64,000 bases of DNA from Rhodothalassiaceae bacterium. GTDB taxonomy: Bacteria; Pseudomonadota; Alphaproteobacteria; Sphingomonadales; Rhodothalassiaceae. A model generated the notes under the pieces. It was not told where the DNA came from. It saw only the letters and a program-made list of their open reading frames with translations, and searched no databases. How positions within the stretch are numbered: position 1 is the stretch's first letter; each line of letters opens with the position of its first letter. The position numbers were made by a program, and so were the translations under genes. Positions 2,483 through 58,700 of the stretch are shown piece by piece. Where the stretch lies: contig BPKC01000001.1 of NCBI GenBank assembly GCA_026004935.1, positions 1,341,491 to 1,405,490 on the forward strand, given 5' to 3'.

Positions 2483-3310
2483 AGAAAGGGGAGACAAGCC
2501 GGTGGTGACGTTCCCCTCTCGCGTCATTCGCCGGCTCGACCGGTGAATCCATGAGGCGGTGACGGCAGGCCCGGCGCGCACGGCTGTCCCCGCCTTCCGC
2601 CGGACCCGCCGGTCGCGCCGGCGGTTGACGATTGGGGGGCGCGCAACGGCGGGCGACACTTTCCTGAACGCGTCGTTCGCCGACTTGATCGGCGAACCCA
2701 TCAGGAGGTGACGCCGTCACGCGCGCCGGGCGATGGCCCCGCCTGCGGCTGGACCCGCCGGTCGAGCCGGCGGGTGACGAGGGGAGGTATGGACCCGCCG
2801 GTCGAGCCGGCGGGTGACGAAGAGAAGGTGGCGGCGGCTGACGCTCTCCTCTTTCGTCATTCGCCGCGAAAGCGGCGAATCCAGCCGCCACTGGGGACGA
2901 TCCCGGCTCTCGAGGCTGCTCGGCTTCCCGCTGGACCCGCCGATCAAGTCGGCGGGTGACGAGGGGAGGTATGGACCCGCCGGTCGAGCCCGCGGGTGAC
3001 GCATTGAGGGGGCGCGCAACGGCGGGCGACACTTTCCTGAACGCGTCGTTCGCCGACTTCGATCGGCGAACCCATCAGGAGGTGACGCCGTCACGCGCGC
3101 CGGGCGATGGCCCCGCCTGCGGCTGGACCCGCCGATCAAGTCGGCGGGTGACGAGGGGAGGTATGGACCCGCCGATCAAGTCGGCGGGTGACGAGGGAAG
3201 GGAATGGACCCGCCGGTCGAGCCGGCGGGTGACGAAGAAGGAGTGCGAGCGTCTACCCCGATCACCGATGACCGCCCGTTGATTACCGATCACCAATCAC
3301 CGATCACCGA
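2438..3310. repeat. Repeat cluster R1: about 12 hairpin units in both orientations
   Basis: This convergent intergenic region holds no credible gene. About twelve copies of a 30-base unit are visible. In plus orientation the unit is TGGAC, then CCGCCGGTCGAGCCGGCGG, then GTGACGA; approximate starts are 2601, 2751, 2790, 2932, 2971, 3124, 3163 and 3204. In minus orientation it is TCGTCA followed by a hairpin such as TTCGCCGCGAAAGCGGCGAA and TCCA; approximate starts are 2522, 2672, 2855 and 3044. Units are irregularly spaced. A block of about 165 bases (2636-2800) recurs at about 3007-3175. Both edges carry 7-base tandem repeats. The layout resembles REP/BIME-type clusters; no associated transposase gene is present in the window. 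Confidence 0.85.
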
Positions 3311-52086: not shown

Positions 52087-53340
52087 GTTGACCGATCCCC
52101 ATTCCTGTCGCTCGATTCATATGGGTGGTCGATGCGCGCGCGGCCACCCTTCCCAAGGATCCCGGACACGGCCGGGTCTTCCGGTGCGCCCTTGTCTTGA
52201 CTGTGCGCGCGATATGCGCGCCAACGTCACCGGAGCAACGCTCGGCTTTGCGGATCACCATCCCTGAGACCACCTCCCCTGCCACGGGTCCGGTACGGCA
52301 TCGAACGGGCGCCGCAGCCGAGTCGCGGGCGGCATTATGCCAGAGCGGGCGTGAAATGGGCTATCAAATTTGGCAGTGCGCCATGGCGGGGAAGTGCGGC
52401 TGCTCGGATGGACTCGGCAATATCCATGCGTGCGTCCGCGCCGGCGGGCGACGCCCTTTTTTCCTCGTGATGCGCCGCAAGAACGGCGGATCCAGCCACC
52501 ATGCGTGATAGCATCCGCCGCCGGCAATCGGCCCGCCGTCCGCTGGACCCGCCGGTCAAGCCGGCGGGTGACGAAGAGATGGTAACGGCGGGTGACGTTT
52601 CTTCTTTCGTCATTCGCCGCGAAAGCGGCGAATCCAAGGGCGAGGGTGACGACTCCGGCGCAGGCAATCGGCCCCGCCGTCCGCTGGACCCGCCGGTCAA
52701 GCCGGCGGGTGACGAGGGAGGGGGGCTGGACCCGCCGGTCAAGCCGGCGGGTGACGAGGGGGCGGGGTCGATCCGCTGGTCGAGCCGGCGGGTGACGAGG
52801 GGGTTGCGGGCCTGCCGGTCAACCTGCCGTCCGACGTCGGGGAGGGCGCACCGGCGGGTGACGTTCGCCCCCTCGCGTCGTTCGCCGGCTTGACCGGCGA
52901 ACCCATCCAGCGGTGACGGCAGCGCCGATGCCGGTGCGTGGCCCGGCCACCCGCTGGACCCGCCGGTCAAGCCGGCGGGTGACGAAGAGATGGTAACGGC
53001 GGGTGACGTTCTTTTCTTTCATCATTCGCCGCGAAAACGGCGGATCCCGCGACGATGGTGACGACTCCGGCGCAGGCAATCGGCCCGCCTTCCGCTGGAC
53101 CCGCCGGTCAAGCCGGCGGGTGACGAGAAAGTGGGCCGGATCCGCCGGTCAAGCCGGCGGGTGACGAGGGAGTGGGCCAGATCCGCCGGTCAAGCCGGCG
53201 GGTGACGAGGAAAGTTTGGCGGCGGGTGACGTCCTTTTTCCTCGCCATGAGCCGTGAAAACGGCGAACCCAGCCGTCGTGCGCGACGGCTGTCGATCGCC
53301 CGCGGGCCGGACGCGTCCGGGTGCAAGGGGCGCCTTCATG
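52087..53340. repeat. Intergenic region with repeat cluster R2 (about 13 hairpin units)
   Basis: 52087-52460 has no clear gene; an extended -10 (TGGCATAAT on the minus strand, near 52334) could serve the dehydrogenase gene. From 52467 to 53273 about thirteen copies of the R1-type unit lie in both orientations. Plus units, CCGCCGGTCAAGCCGGCGG with TGGAC before and GTGACGA after, start near 52544, 52685, 52727, 52769, 52955, 53096, 53134 and 53174. Minus units lie near 52467, 52608, 52875, 53019 and 53240. The stretch 52544-52680 is repeated with small changes at 52955-53092. Confidence 0.85.
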
Positions 53341-54153
53341 TCAGGGGCGCGGGGAGCGCAATGCTTCCTGCACCGCCGCCAGACGCGGCGCGAGCGCCGA
53401 GACGGCCACAGGCACCGGGCGTGGCGGGCCGGCGTGGGCCTTCAGCCAGGCGAGATGCTGCGCCATCGGCTCGCGCCAGGACGGATCGGCGCTCTCGAGC
53501 GTGACGCCGCCGGCCGCGCGCACCGCGTCATACAGGCGGAGCAGGGCGTCCGCGCCGAGACCGAGGCGGCGCAGGATCTCGATCGCCTCGCCATCGATGC
53601 GCCGCTGCTCCTCCAGCCATTCCTCCGGCGTCATGACCGCCAGGCGCTTGCGCCGCAGGGTTTCGATCGCCGCCTCGGTGCTGCGGCGCACGATCTGCTG
53701 ATTGGGATCGTTCGTGCCGCCGCGATAGAGCGCATCGGCGGGGGGCACCGCACGCACGGTGAAGCGCTTGCGCCTGGCGTCCGGTGCGGCCGCCTCATGC
53801 ATCGCCTGGAGCCGGGCGAGCAGCGCAAACCAGGCCTCCACATCCGGCAGAGCCCGCAGGAGACCGCCGGAGATGACGGCCCGCTTCCCTTCGGCGAAAT
53901 AGGCGACGGGCTGGGAGACGTCGGCGGCAAGCTCCACGGCGAAGTCGAGCTCGTCTCCGGCGCGCCCGCTCGCCGGCACGAGAAGCGCCGCACTGTCCGT
54001 GACCAGCGCCGCGAAGGCCTCCGCAAGCGGGTCCCCGGCCTGCGGCGCATCGCCCTCCCGGGCCGCCAGCGGGCCGACGACGGCCACCATCCCCGCGAGT
54101 ACCAGAAGCGCCAGAGCCGCGCCCGCCCGCCATCTCATCGGCTTCGCCCCCAT
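53341..54153 (-). CDS. Secreted M48-like protein lacking the zinc-site residues
   Basis: 270 aa with an N-terminal signal or anchor (about 8-30). Residues 84-118 align without gaps to the M48 peptidase core: AYFAEGKRAVISGGLL corresponds to the segment before the active-site helix, but ARLQAM stands where AHExxH is expected, so both histidines and the glutamate are gone. A later segment (RRIDGEAIEILRRLG) matches the ExxAD helix, with the third ligand changed to glutamine. SADPSWREPM near 221 matches the STHPxxxxR motif. I infer a catalytically dead M48 relative, perhaps a chaperone or binding protein. No Bam or lipoprotein gene is adjacent. Confidence 0.6.
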   Translation of the reverse strand: MGAKPMRWRAGAALALLVLAGMVAVVGPLAAREGDAPQAGDPLAEAFAALVTDSAALLVPASGRAGDELDFAVELAADVSQPVAYFAEGKRAVISGGLLRALPDVEAWFALLARLQAMHEAAAPDARRKRFTVRAVPPADALYRGGTNDPNQQIVRRSTEAAIETLRRKRLAVMTPEEWLEEQRRIDGEAIEILRRLGLGADALLRLYDAVRAAGGVTLESADPSWREPMAQHLAWLKAHAGPPRPVPVAVSALAPRLAAVQEALRSPRP

Positions 54154-54265: not shown

Positions 54266-55747
54266 TCAGCCCTTCATCTGCATCTTCAAGGTCCGCTCCA
54301 GCGCCCTGCCGTAGGGGGGGATGGCGCCGGAGAGCTTCAGCAGGTCGATCTTCGGCTGGCGCAGGACGCTGCGCGCATGCGAGAAGGTGCGGAAGCCGTC
54401 GCGGCCGTGATAAACGCCCATTCCCGACGGCCCGATGCCGCCGAAGGGCAGGTCCTCGACCGCGACATGCCACATCACGTCGTTGACGGTCACCCCGCCG
54501 GAGATGGTGCGCGACAGCACCGCGTCGATCTCCTCCCGGCGTTCGCCGAAGACATAGAGCCCAAGCGGGCGCGGATGCGCGTTCACGTAGGCGATGGCAT
54601 CATCGAGGCTGTCGTAGCCGACGACCGGCAGAAGCGGGCCGAAGATCTCCTCCTGCATCACCGTCATCTCGTCGGTCACATCGGTCAGGATGTGGAGCGG
54701 CAGGACGTTGCTGTTGTCCTCAGGATCGAAGCGCTCGCCGGCCGGGTTCACGACGCGCACGCTCGCCCCCTTCTTCTCGGCGTCGCGCACATGACCGAGC
54801 AGCCGCTCCTTGTGGCGGCGGTTGATGACGGAGGTGTAGTCCGGATTGTCCTTTATGCGCGGGTAGAGGCCGGATGCGGTCTCCTCCACCGCGGCGACGA
54901 AGGCGTCCCGCTTGTCGCGCGGCACCAGCGCATAGTCGGGAGCAAGGCAGATCTGGCCCGCGTTCATCATCTTGCCGGCGACGATGCGGTAGGCCGCACG
55001 ATCCAGATCGGCCGAGGGCGCAAGAATCGCCGGCGACTTGCCGCCGAGCTCCAGGGTTACGGGCACGAGATTTTCGGCCGCCGCCCGCATCACATGGCGC
55101 GCGATTCCCGTGGCCCCGGTAAACAGCAGATGGTCGAAGGCGAGCGAGGCGAAGGCCGCGCCCACCTCGGGGCCGCCGGTGAACACGGCCGCCTCGGCCT
55201 CGTCGAAGTAGCGCGCGACGAGCTCGGCGATCAGCGCGCTGGTGGCCGGCGTGAATTCGGACGGCTTGATCATGACGCGGTTGCCGGCCGCGAAGATCCC
55301 GGCCAGTGGCGCGAAGGTGAGATTGACGGGAAAATTCCACGGGCTGATGACGCCGACGACCCCCTTCGGCTCCCAGGACACCCAGGCCTTCGCGCCCAGC
55401 AGATTGAGGGGAAAGTCCACGCTGCGCCGCTCGGGCCGCATCCACCAGCGCAGATTCCTGCGCGCATGGGCGAGCGCCTTGACCGCCGGCAGCACGTCCG
55501 CGAACTTGCCCATGAGCGGCGGGCGGCCGCAGAAATCCTCGTTCATCGCCTCCGCCAGGGCGTCCTGATGGGTTTTCAGCAGATCGATGGTGCGCCTGAG
55601 CCTGTCGTCGCGGACCTTGCGCGGCACGGGCCGCTCGGCCTCGAAGGCCGCACGCTGGCGCCCCAATACCTCCTCCATGCGCCGGCGGATGTCCTCGGCG
55701 CCGGATCCGCTCTCATGCGTTGCGCGCGTCTTCTCGGCGATCGCCAT
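54266..55747 (-). CDS. Aldehyde dehydrogenase (coniferyl-aldehyde dehydrogenase-like)
   Basis: 493 aa from the ATG at 55747 (GGAGGAGG upstream). E234 (LELGGKSP) and C267 (NAGQICLAP) are the catalytic residues; the NAD(P) fold has SPWNFPVNL. The C-terminal MWHVAVEDLPFGGIGPSGMG is typical of class 3-like bacterial aldehyde dehydrogenases such as CalB. Substrate is not certain: coniferyl aldehyde or a long-chain aldehyde. A hydrophobic membrane-binding tail is not obvious. The neighbouring O-methyltransferase also belongs to a family active on aromatic compounds, which is suggestive only. Confidence 0.9.
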   Translation of the reverse strand: MAIAEKTRATHESGSGAEDIRRRMEEVLGRQRAAFEAERPVPRKVRDDRLRRTIDLLKTHQDALAEAMNEDFCGRPPLMGKFADVLPAVKALAHARRNLRWWMRPERRSVDFPLNLLGAKAWVSWEPKGVVGVISPWNFPVNLTFAPLAGIFAAGNRVMIKPSEFTPATSALIAELVARYFDEAEAAVFTGGPEVGAAFASLAFDHLLFTGATGIARHVMRAAAENLVPVTLELGGKSPAILAPSADLDRAAYRIVAGKMMNAGQICLAPDYALVPRDKRDAFVAAVEETASGLYPRIKDNPDYTSVINRRHKERLLGHVRDAEKKGASVRVVNPAGERFDPEDNSNVLPLHILTDVTDEMTVMQEEIFGPLLPVVGYDSLDDAIAYVNAHPRPLGLYVFGERREEIDAVLSRTISGGVTVNDVMWHVAVEDLPFGGIGPSGMGVYHGRDGFRTFSHARSVLRQPKIDLLKLSGAIPPYGRALERTLKMQMKG

Positions 55748-55896
55748 GGTCTCCTCCTCCACGTCCCGTGATCCGCGACACCGGCCCGGATGCGGCCGCA
55801 CTGCGACGATCATAGCACAGACGGGGCCCGCACCCGCCCTGATCTTTCCGTGAGCGGCGAGAAGGGGGCAGGAAAGGCGCCCGCGCCGTGCCGCCT

Positions 55897-56559
55897 TCAG
55901 CGCTTGCGGGCGAGGGTCAGGCCGTCGCCCACCGGCAGCATCACGATGTCGACGCGCTGATCGTCCCGCACATGCTCGTTGAAGGAGCGGATGGCGACGG
56001 TGTCCTGGTCGTCGGCTGCCGGATCGATGACGCGGCCGGACCACAGCACGTTGTCGGCCGCCACGATGCCGCCGGGGCGCAGGAGGGCGAGCGCCTGCTC
56101 GTAATAGGCGATGTAGCCGGTCTTGTCGGCATCGATGAAAATGAAGTCGACGAGCCCCTCCAGCCCCTCGCGCCCCAGCGCCGCCAGACTCTCGGCGGCC
56201 GGGGCGATCCTGAGATCGATCTTGCGCGCGACGTCGGCCTCCTCCCAGAAGGGGCGGCCGATCGCCGGGAACTCGGCCGAGATGTCGAGGGCATGCACGA
56301 TCCCGTCCTCGGGCAGGGCGAGTGCGAAGCCGAGCGTCGCATAGCCCGTGAATACGCCCACCTCGACGACGCGTCGCGCGTTGATCGCCTTCAGCAGCAG
56401 CTGCAGGAAGGCCACCTGCTCGGCGGACGAGCGCATGACCGAAAGCGGATGGTTGTCGGTCACCTCGCGCAGCCGCCGCTGGACTTCGGTCTCGCGCACG
56501 CCGACGGCCAGCAGATATTCCTGCAGCGCCTCGCTCAGTCCCAGAGAACGCGTGGACAT
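55897..56559 (-). CDS. Class I SAM-dependent O-methyltransferase (CCoAOMT-like)
   Basis: 220 aa. SAM-binding motif VVEVGVFTGYATLGFALALP, catalytic metal-site segment FIFIDADKTGYIAYYE and AADNVLWSGRV, all typical of the caffeoyl-CoA O-methyltransferase-like family that methylates catechol-type hydroxyls with a divalent metal. Bacterial members act on varied small molecules. It lies 149 bases upstream of the aldehyde dehydrogenase on the same strand and is divergent from the phosphatase gene. Confidence 0.9.
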   Translation of the reverse strand: MSTRSLGLSEALQEYLLAVGVRETEVQRRLREVTDNHPLSVMRSSAEQVAFLQLLLKAINARRVVEVGVFTGYATLGFALALPEDGIVHALDISAEFPAIGRPFWEEADVARKIDLRIAPAAESLAALGREGLEGLVDFIFIDADKTGYIAYYEQALALLRPGGIVAADNVLWSGRVIDPAADDQDTVAIRSFNEHVRDDQRVDIVMLPVGDGLTLARKR

Positions 56560-56586
56560 GCCATCCTCCCGATCCCGCCCCGATCC

Positions 56587-56604
56587 TTGTCAGGAATCCG
56601 TCAC
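56587..56604 (+). promoter_or_regulatory. Possible Pho box ahead of the alkaline phosphatase gene
   Basis: TTGTCAG and CCGTCAC are separated by GAAT, giving two seven-base half-sites with the 11-base period of PhoB boxes. An ATGATA-like -10 follows a few bases later, closer than usual. Confidence 0.4.
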
Positions 56605-56682
56605 GGCAGCATGATAGCGCCGTCGATGCCGCGCGTCACGCGCGGGGCGGATCCGCGGGTTCAAAGAGAAGGGAGGACCGGC

Positions 56683-58230
56683 ATGATGCGGGACGATACG
56701 GGCGCGAGGCGGGTGTGGGGCGGGCGTTCCGCCGCGCTCTGCCGGGACGTGGCGGCGGCGATGCTGCTTCTCGTCCTGTCCATTCCGTCCGTGATGGCGC
56801 AGGAGCCGGGAGACGATCCGCGTTCTGCGGATCCCACCTGGGCGCAGGGCCGCGGGCAGATCGCCGAGCGGCTGGCGGCCACGCCGCTCACCGGACATGC
56901 CCGCAACGTCATCCTCTTCATCGGCGACGGCATGGGGGTGAGCACGGTGACCGCCATGCGCATCTACGCCGGCCAGCAGAAGGGATTGCGCGGCGAGGAA
57001 TACGAGCTGCCTTTCGAGCGCTTTCCCTTCACCGCGCTCGTCAAGACCTACAACGTGAACGCCCAGGTGCCGGACTCGGCGGGCACCGCGAGCGCCCTTT
57101 ACACCGGCATCAAGACGGACATCGGCGTGCTGTCGATCCGCGCGGGCGCGCATGGCGACTGCGCGGCCATGCAGGCCGTGCCGACGATCGTGGAGGAGCT
57201 GGAGGACCGCGGATACGCGACCGGGATCGTCACCACCACGCGGCTTACCCACGCCACGCCCGCCGCGGCCTACGCGCATGCGCCGGACCGGGACTGGGAG
57301 GCGGACGCGGACATGCCGCCCGCCGCCAGCGCTCTGGGCTGCCGGGACATCGCCGCGCAATTCGCGGCCTTTTCCCATGGCGACGGCATCGATGTCGCGC
57401 TGGGCGGCGGGCGCGCGAACTTCCTGCCCGCATCGCGGGGCGGCCGGCGCGGCGACGGGCGGGACCTGATCGCGGCCTGGCGGGCGGGAGGGGATCATCG
57501 GCAGGTCGTCACGACGGCGGGCGCCCTTGCGCAATTCGCGCCGGGGCCGGAAGATCAGCTTCTCGGGCTGTTCTCCGACTCCCACATGGCCTTCGACCAC
57601 GACCGCCGTGCGGGCGGGCTGGACCAGCCCTCCCTCGCGGAGATGACGGCGGCCGCCATCCGCCTGCTCCAGGCGCGCACGGCCGGCCGCGCGCACGGGT
57701 TCTTCCTGATGGTCGAGGGCGGGCGGATCGATCATGCGCACCATGCCGGCAACGCCTTCCGGGCGCTCGATGACGGGCGGGCCTTCGCCGAGGCGGTCGA
57801 GCGGGCGATGGCGATGGTCGATCCGGCCGACACCCTGGTGCTGGTGACCGCCGACCATTCCCATGTCTTCGCGATCGCCGGCTATCCGCCGCGCGGCAAT
57901 CCGATTCTCGGGCTCGTCCGCGCCATCGCGCCGGATGCGGACGGCCATCACCCCATCGCGAAGGCGGCGGACGGGCGGCCGTATACGACGCTCGGCTATC
58001 TCAACGGCCCCGGGGCCGGCCGCCGGCTGCCGGCGGATGCGGACGATCGGCTCGTGCTCGAGCCCGGCTACCGGCAGGAGGCGGTCGTGCCGCTCAATTC
58101 GGAGACGCATTCGGGCGAAGACGTGCCGCTTTACGCCATCGGCCCCGGCGCCCGGCTCGCCCGCGGCGTGATGGAACAGAATGCCGTCTACCACCTGATG
58201 CGCACCGCTCTCGGCCTCGACGATCGCTAG
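56683..58230 (+). CDS. Alkaline phosphatase (PhoA superfamily), exported
   Basis: 515 aa with a strong GGAGG site and an N-terminal signal peptide (about 18-40, cleaved near MAQEP). IGDGMG binds metal, PDSAGTASAL carries the phosphorylated serine S132, EGGRIDHAHH holds zinc ligands, and ADHSH and THSGEDVPL complete the metal centre. It is expected to hydrolyse phosphomonoesters in the periplasm. A possible Pho box lies about 80 bases upstream. It converges on putA with repeat cluster R3 between. Confidence 0.92.
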   Translation: MMRDDTGARRVWGGRSAALCRDVAAAMLLLVLSIPSVMAQEPGDDPRSADPTWAQGRGQIAERLAATPLTGHARNVILFIGDGMGVSTVTAMRIYAGQQKGLRGEEYELPFERFPFTALVKTYNVNAQVPDSAGTASALYTGIKTDIGVLSIRAGAHGDCAAMQAVPTIVEELEDRGYATGIVTTTRLTHATPAAAYAHAPDRDWEADADMPPAASALGCRDIAAQFAAFSHGDGIDVALGGGRANFLPASRGGRRGDGRDLIAAWRAGGDHRQVVTTAGALAQFAPGPEDQLLGLFSDSHMAFDHDRRAGGLDQPSLAEMTAAAIRLLQARTAGRAHGFFLMVEGGRIDHAHHAGNAFRALDDGRAFAEAVERAMAMVDPADTLVLVTADHSHVFAIAGYPPRGNPILGLVRAIAPDADGHHPIAKAADGRPYTTLGYLNGPGAGRRLPADADDRLVLEPGYRQEAVVPLNSETHSGEDVPLYAIGPGARLARGVMEQNAVYHLMRTALGLDDR

Positions 58231-58700
58231 GGCCGGCCCGCCCGGCACAGCGAGCCCGTTTCTCGCCACCCGCCGGCACTCTCCCTGCGTCATCCGCCGG
58301 CTTGACCGGCGGATCCAGCTGGAAGCGGGGCCAGTCACGAGCGCCGGGATCGTCCCTGGCAGCGGCTGGATTCGCCGCTTTCGCGGCGAATGACGAAAGA
58401 GAAGAGCGTCACCCGCCGGCACTCTCCCTGCGTCATCCGCCAGCTTGACCGGCGGATCCATTTCCTTCCCGCGTCATCCGCCGGCTTGACCGGCGGATCC
58501 AGCCGGCAGCCGGGGCGCTCAACAGCATCGGAGCTGCCGTCTCCGCCTGATGGGTTCGCCGGTCGAGCCGGCGAACGACGCGAAGGGGGAGCGTCACCGT
58601 CGGTGCGTGCTTTCCTTCGCCGCCCGCCGGCCCGGCCGGGCGGGGGACGCCCGTCATCCTTCCAGCCGGAAGAGCCGGCCTGGCCGGGCGCAGGCGTCCG
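58231..58700. repeat. Intergenic repeat cluster R3 (about six hairpin units)
   Basis: No gene is supported. Units near 58289, 58431 and 58472 are of the GTCATCCGCCGG-loop-CCGGCGGATCCA type (minus orientation); 58367 carries TTCGCCGCTTTCGCGGCGAA, the reverse of the GAAA-loop unit; 58550 and about 58620 are further or degenerate copies. The family is the same as in R1 and R2, with stem ends mostly CCGCC. Like R1, it fills the gap between two converging genes. Confidence 0.8.

Follow-up and report, generated by a model that had tools for sequence, protein, structure and literature searches.

The locus described here raises the question of what a protein does when it appears to keep the fold of a zinc peptidase without the residues needed for cutting. 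It lies in a window of 64,000 nucleotides (the whole stretch of DNA that was analyzed), from a genome of 2.9 Mb in two contigs. The position given for the open reading frame by the original prediction, 53341-54153, is right, and the GC fractions by codon position (0.81/0.54/0.87) are those expected of coding sequence when the genome is rich in GC. The product contains three His and no Cys. Its N-terminus is hydrophobic, as are those of the orthologues, and the AlphaFold2 model of the window protein shows a hydrophobic helix (residues 9-30) followed by a low-confidence linker; from this helix, seen in both sequence and models, we infer that the pseudo-peptidase is probably exported. The features referred to below are as follows:

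53341..54153, minus strand: pseudo-peptidase gene, an open reading frame with ATG start and TGA stop, 270 aa
54061..54153, minus strand: probable signal peptide, about residues 1-31, ending in ...GPLAA (hydrophobic N-terminus, putative cleavage site)
53869..53910, minus strand: residues 82-95 with strands 84-87 and 91-95, predicted counterpart of the BepA edge strand (model and profile alignment)
53800..53817, minus strand: degenerate HExxH site, ARLQAM (residues 113-118), opposite AHELGH of BepA-type peptidases (profile alignment)
53593..53607, minus strand: degenerate third-ligand site, QRRID (residues 183-187), with Gln 183 at the ligand position and Asp 187 kept (profile alignment)
53473..53493, minus strand: degenerate plug segment, SADPSWR (residues 221-227), without His and with Arg 227 invariant in five orthologues (orthologue alignment)
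54266..55747, minus strand: aldehyde dehydrogenase gene, the upstream neighbor across a gap of 112 bp, adjoining the pseudo-peptidase gene in all five carriers

The protein belongs to a family without a name in Pfam or NCBIfam. Scans of both collections with single sequences gave no significant family match, and PF01435 was not matched by any of the five orthologues at E up to 10, leaving all of them below the Pfam gathering score. Two candidates from these scans were discarded, namely RPAP1_N, which reached only E 0.25 with the window protein, and a model of DNA polymerase III delta', matched by a single orthologue among the five at E 0.016. The window protein, used singly to scan the genome contigs, found no relative, and a plasmid search returned no match. 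A sequence search of the PDB ranked the M48 peptidase 3c37 first, though only at E 0.14.

A profile built from the five orthologue sequences reached further. Scoring 343-399 bits against its own family, this profile (A1) matched 61 of 296 order genomes at E 0.01, comprising the five carriers and 56 others, the latter at E 6.4e-6 to 0.009. In all 25 loci examined from these 56 genomes, the matched frame has [IV]NAFV[AP]GG and HExxH, with the intact HExxH closing the matched stretch within 15 bases; what A1 recognizes is thus the region before HExxH, its matches mostly ending at the first residues of that motif. We take these 25 loci, by motifs and length, to encode BepA-type peptidases; the non-orthologous matches, being from related genomes, are not mutually independent. 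Profile-profile comparison with hhalign gave 94.6% for the orthologue profile against the 25 BepA-type sequences, 55% against six LoiP-like and 4.3% against six HtpX-like sequences (both names being labels that we presume to be apt), with all sets chosen by an HExxH-like motif and hence no measure of how often M48 proteins lose HExxH. Maxima over 100 column-shuffled versions were 5.4% for the BepA set and 1.7% for the LoiP set, six draws of six BepA-type sequences gave 92.6-94.8%, and an aldehyde-dehydrogenase control gave 0.2%. The profile-profile alignment extends past HExxH as far as the third-ligand helix. Sequence profiles therefore indicate homology to M48 for which a single sequence alone falls short.

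Two AlphaFold2 models were compared with known structures, one with the window protein first and three orthologues added (mean pLDDT 72, pTM 0.67, residues 124-172 of low confidence) and one with the protein of Iodidimonas muriae first (pLDDT 78, pTM 0.71); because the same four sequences were used, the models are not fully independent. Foldseek placed 3c37 and BepA in the top nine places for the first model at E 0.012-0.5, with every match above E 0.001, and matched the second to 3c37 at E 3.7e-5. In VIA-align 2, the first model aligned with BepA 6sar at Z 15.3 (165 residues, 3.2 A) and with 3c37 at Z 13.7 (173 residues, 3.9 A), the tool warning that mostly helical models may score Z 13-14 without a clear relative; ZMPSTE24 and Ste24p followed at Z about 9. 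The second model aligned with BepA at Z 18.1 (170 residues, 2.9 A) and with 3c37 at Z 15.6, and its further matches are other zinc peptidases (abylysin 8.7, selecase 7.9). In both models the aligned BepA residues are 55-295 only. The assignment to M48 in the original prediction is thus borne out by structure prediction, in which E. coli BepA is the best PDB match for either protein, and the models, with BepA and 3c37 ranked first at Z 13.7-18.1, point to an M48 fold.

The active site is where the family departs from its relatives. Residues 77-122 align without gaps along the BepA-type M48 active-site region, a stretch that encloses the ungapped alignment of residues 84-118 proposed from the sequence alone. 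As also proposed, HExxH is replaced by ARLQAM, with R114 in place of the first His, L115 in place of the Glu and M118 in place of the second His. In the order window/G001/G002/G005/G006, the orthologues have R,H,R,R,R at the first-His position, L,L,V,I,I at the Glu position, M,I,Q,E,E at the second-His position and Q,A,A,A,A at the third-ligand position. The last of these was located by an Asp present in all five orthologues (Asp 187 in the window copy), since we take the third zinc ligand of M48 to stand four residues before it; the ligand is gone, as expected, with Gln 183 in the window copy. Intact HExxH and the third Glu are each found in none of the five, so that the losses are shared among orthologues. 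One orthologue keeps the first His, and this residue, left in the same-genus genome, is plausibly a trace of an ancestral HExxH.

The M48 active-site plug follows the pattern HPx4R and contains the switch His of BepA, H246, according to the accessible text of PMC7950410. The original prediction that an STHP-like segment remains holds for the window copy, where SADP (residues 221-224) resembles STHP, but not for the family: His is absent from all five orthologues and Pro from the other four. HP thus occurs in none of the five plug segments, nothing corresponds to the BepA switch His, and the Arg alone is invariant. With the metal-binding and catalytic residues lost, we infer that peptidase activity is absent, and the protein probably binds proteins rather than cutting them. 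The fold match and the losses in all five orthologues support the earlier reading as an inactive M48 homologue, and we are highly confident that an M48/BepA core fold is combined here with the loss of the metal-site residues.

With modest confidence in the statement as a whole, function included, we lean toward a probably exported, non-catalytic relative of the BepA-type peptidase domain that binds envelope or outer-membrane proteins without cutting them, as a periplasmic binder or chaperone. The chaperone or inhibitor role put forward in the original prediction is likewise a putative one. The predicted core fold retains the N-terminal helix, the three-stranded sheet, the active-site helix, the third-ligand helix and the two helices that follow. 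Like BepA/YfgC, an E. coli M48 peptidase and LptD assembly factor (PDB 6ait, 6sar), the pseudo-peptidase would have the same peptidase-domain fold (Z 15.3/18.1), the edge strand and probable export, and BepA-type sequences are its best profile match. Unlike BepA, it lacks the zinc-binding residues (both HExxH histidines and the third zinc Glu) as well as the catalytic Glu and the switch His, and its end at residue 270 comes before any TPR domain. A closer match in architecture is 3c37 (putative M48 peptidase Q74D82, Geobacter sulfurreducens), a stand-alone M48 domain of similar size and the best PDB match by sequence and by Foldseek, although the sequence alignment has AHE in 3c37 and AR, or AH without the Glu, in the pseudo-peptidase family.

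In the proposed mechanism, the retained edge strand would bind partly folded envelope or outer-membrane proteins, which would be held or delivered uncut, comparable to the contact with LptD that protease-dead BepA retains. In E. coli, immature LptD is contacted by the BepA edge strand (Asn 105, Ala 106, Phe 107), and a weakened chaperone-like effect persists in protease-dead BepA E137Q, as described in the available portion of PMC8423444. Pro 82 and Ala 84 at the predicted strand are invariant in all five orthologues, and Ala 84 aligns with the Ala in the N-A-F motif that BepA-type peptidases carry; it would correspond to BepA Ala 106, the equation running through the BepA-type profile rather than the letters of E. 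coli BepA. These three points, the LptD contact, the persisting E137Q effect and the two invariant residues, are why a non-cutting envelope-protein binder is preferred. Against it, the residue after Ala 84, where E. coli BepA has Phe 107, can be Y, W, T, M or V among the orthologues, and the missing TPR domain makes docking as BepA does impossible. The parallel with E137Q, an M48 domain in contact with substrate that it does not cut, is also incomplete: that mutant is laboratory-made, with the catalytic Glu alone changed and the rest, TPR domain included, kept. In E. coli it aggravates sensitivity to vancomycin and has a dominant-negative effect, by the accessible part of PMC7950410. The dehydrogenase neighbor gives no hint of an envelope role.

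That dominant-negative effect of inactive BepA in E. coli (PMC7950410, accessible text) favors the main rival, in which the protein would regulate an active M48 paralogue of its own cell or serve as a decoy for it, binding the peptidase or competing for its substrates. Candidate partners exist: PF01435 is matched above the cut-off five times in the window genome and three to five times in each of the other four carriers; HExxH was seen in two of the window genome's five, the two loci examined (L040, L044). These genes are nevertheless distant from the pseudo-peptidase gene, the nearest on the same contig of any carrier being about 42 kb away, and we regard such a role as unlikely. More broadly, and only tentatively, the locus may represent a natural, catalytically dead BepA-type domain that became fixed in one alphaproteobacterial family, either to handle intermediates of outer-membrane proteins, without cutting them, or to antagonize active M48 peptidases.

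Reuse of the former pocket for ligand binding or a new activity, through Arg 114 (His in one orthologue), Asp 187 and Arg 227, is less probable still, and we consider it doubtful at best. All five orthologues have Asp 187 and Arg 227, and four of them have Arg at position 114, yet no new conserved catalytic set is evident among them. An Asp near that site is conserved in M48 peptidases, and this holds in the M48 loci examined. An Arg near the other place is likewise conserved in M48 peptidases, according to the available text of PMC7950410.

The preferred reading of a non-cutting binder presupposes a gene that is maintained, and its distribution and divergence bear on this point. Orthologues occur in five of seven family genomes, the window genome included, and in two genera; three of the carriers are presumably I. 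muriae JCM 17843, alphaproteobacterium Q-1 and a bacterium that is uncultured and carries the label Sphingomonadales, with Iodidimonas placed by NCBI in Iodidimonadaceae. The gene was not found in family genomes G003 and G004, the latter only 64% complete. Searches of 296 order genomes and 385 class genomes, both drawn from larger groups, gave no further orthologue, so the gene looks family-restricted within the genomes searched. Class-wide, the profile matched 15 of the 385 genomes besides the window's own; nine matches were inspected, of which seven have HExxH and two lack the Glu. All were rejected as orthologues, the best reaching 32 bits against 343-399 within the family.

In all five carriers the pseudo-peptidase gene lies downstream of the same aldehyde dehydrogenase gene (presumably for a coniferyl aldehyde dehydrogenase) and on the same strand. 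A set of 40 genomes that included the window's own yielded 23 dehydrogenase loci, of which only those of the five carriers match in the downstream stretch; a divergent copy behind the dehydrogenase gene in non-carriers was sought, and the matches listed there have E 1 or worse. In G003 this stretch encodes another protein, which we take to be haemolysin III-like, on the opposite strand, and in G004 the contig stops about 260 bases beyond the dehydrogenase gene. A protein gene at window 55888-58230 (plus strand) has a counterpart in I. muriae (L048, 2605-4128, minus strand), near the dehydrogenase and pseudo-peptidase genes; both products are presumably alkaline-phosphatase-like, and the shared neighborhood may therefore be wider.

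Decay of a gene without function is very improbable, even though divergence is fast: identity to the window copy is 24-42%, and the two copies of the window's genus differ by dN 0.62 and dS 1.14 (dN/dS about 0.5), which indicates a rapidly changing gene, and absence from G003 and the incomplete G004 would also suit loss. The frame, however, is open in all five carriers, from two genera and beside the same neighbor (the I. muriae alignment row starts at ATC, a putative start), and pN in the second genus is 0.32-0.37 against a pS of 0.72-0.81. Third codon positions are the most divergent in 10 of 10 orthologue pairs, with the distant pairs saturated. A pseudogene was rejected on the open frames and codon positions, subject to the caution that saturation affects most pairs. 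It is just as improbable that the protein is no relative of M48 and owes its likeness to convergence or to an artefact of modelling, for despite the lack of a significant Pfam or NCBIfam match and the modest E values (0.012 at best for the window model in Foldseek, 0.14 for 3c37 by sequence), the sequence profile, the profile-profile comparison and the two models all point to the same family.

Pseudo-peptidases are already a known kind of protein; the present family would add a variant of the M48/BepA fold that is not a peptidase and is specific to one lineage. LptD is both assembled with the help of BepA and degraded by it, and splitting the two roles took laboratory mutants. A natural BepA relative without any metal contact would reveal surfaces that serve binding alone. 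Among the titles and accessible passages of open papers found by searching for inactive M48 proteins, none concerned a bacterial M48 pseudo-peptidase.

Two further alphaproteobacterial proteins over the PF01435 cut-off, L053 and L056, have HCMGH and HQMGH in place of HExxH. They resemble the pseudo-peptidase as relatives of M48 without the catalytic Glu, but differ in keeping both histidines, in passing the Pfam cut-off and in not being orthologous. L054, of the same subfamily as these two by eye, has HEMGH, and the comparison of the three sequences hints at further, separate inactivations in M48.

The window also contains a 29-bp repeat, palindromic in its core (CCCGCCGG TCAAG CCGGCGGG). Exact copies of its 27-bp core were sought in 21 genomes; none was present in 19 of these, including the same-genus one (89% complete), and the remaining two have 236 (the window's genome) and 15 (G018). 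With up to 3 mismatches, the 29-bp repeat (52545-53207, 2602-3234 and 58288-58500) occurs 18 times in the window, where none is expected by chance.
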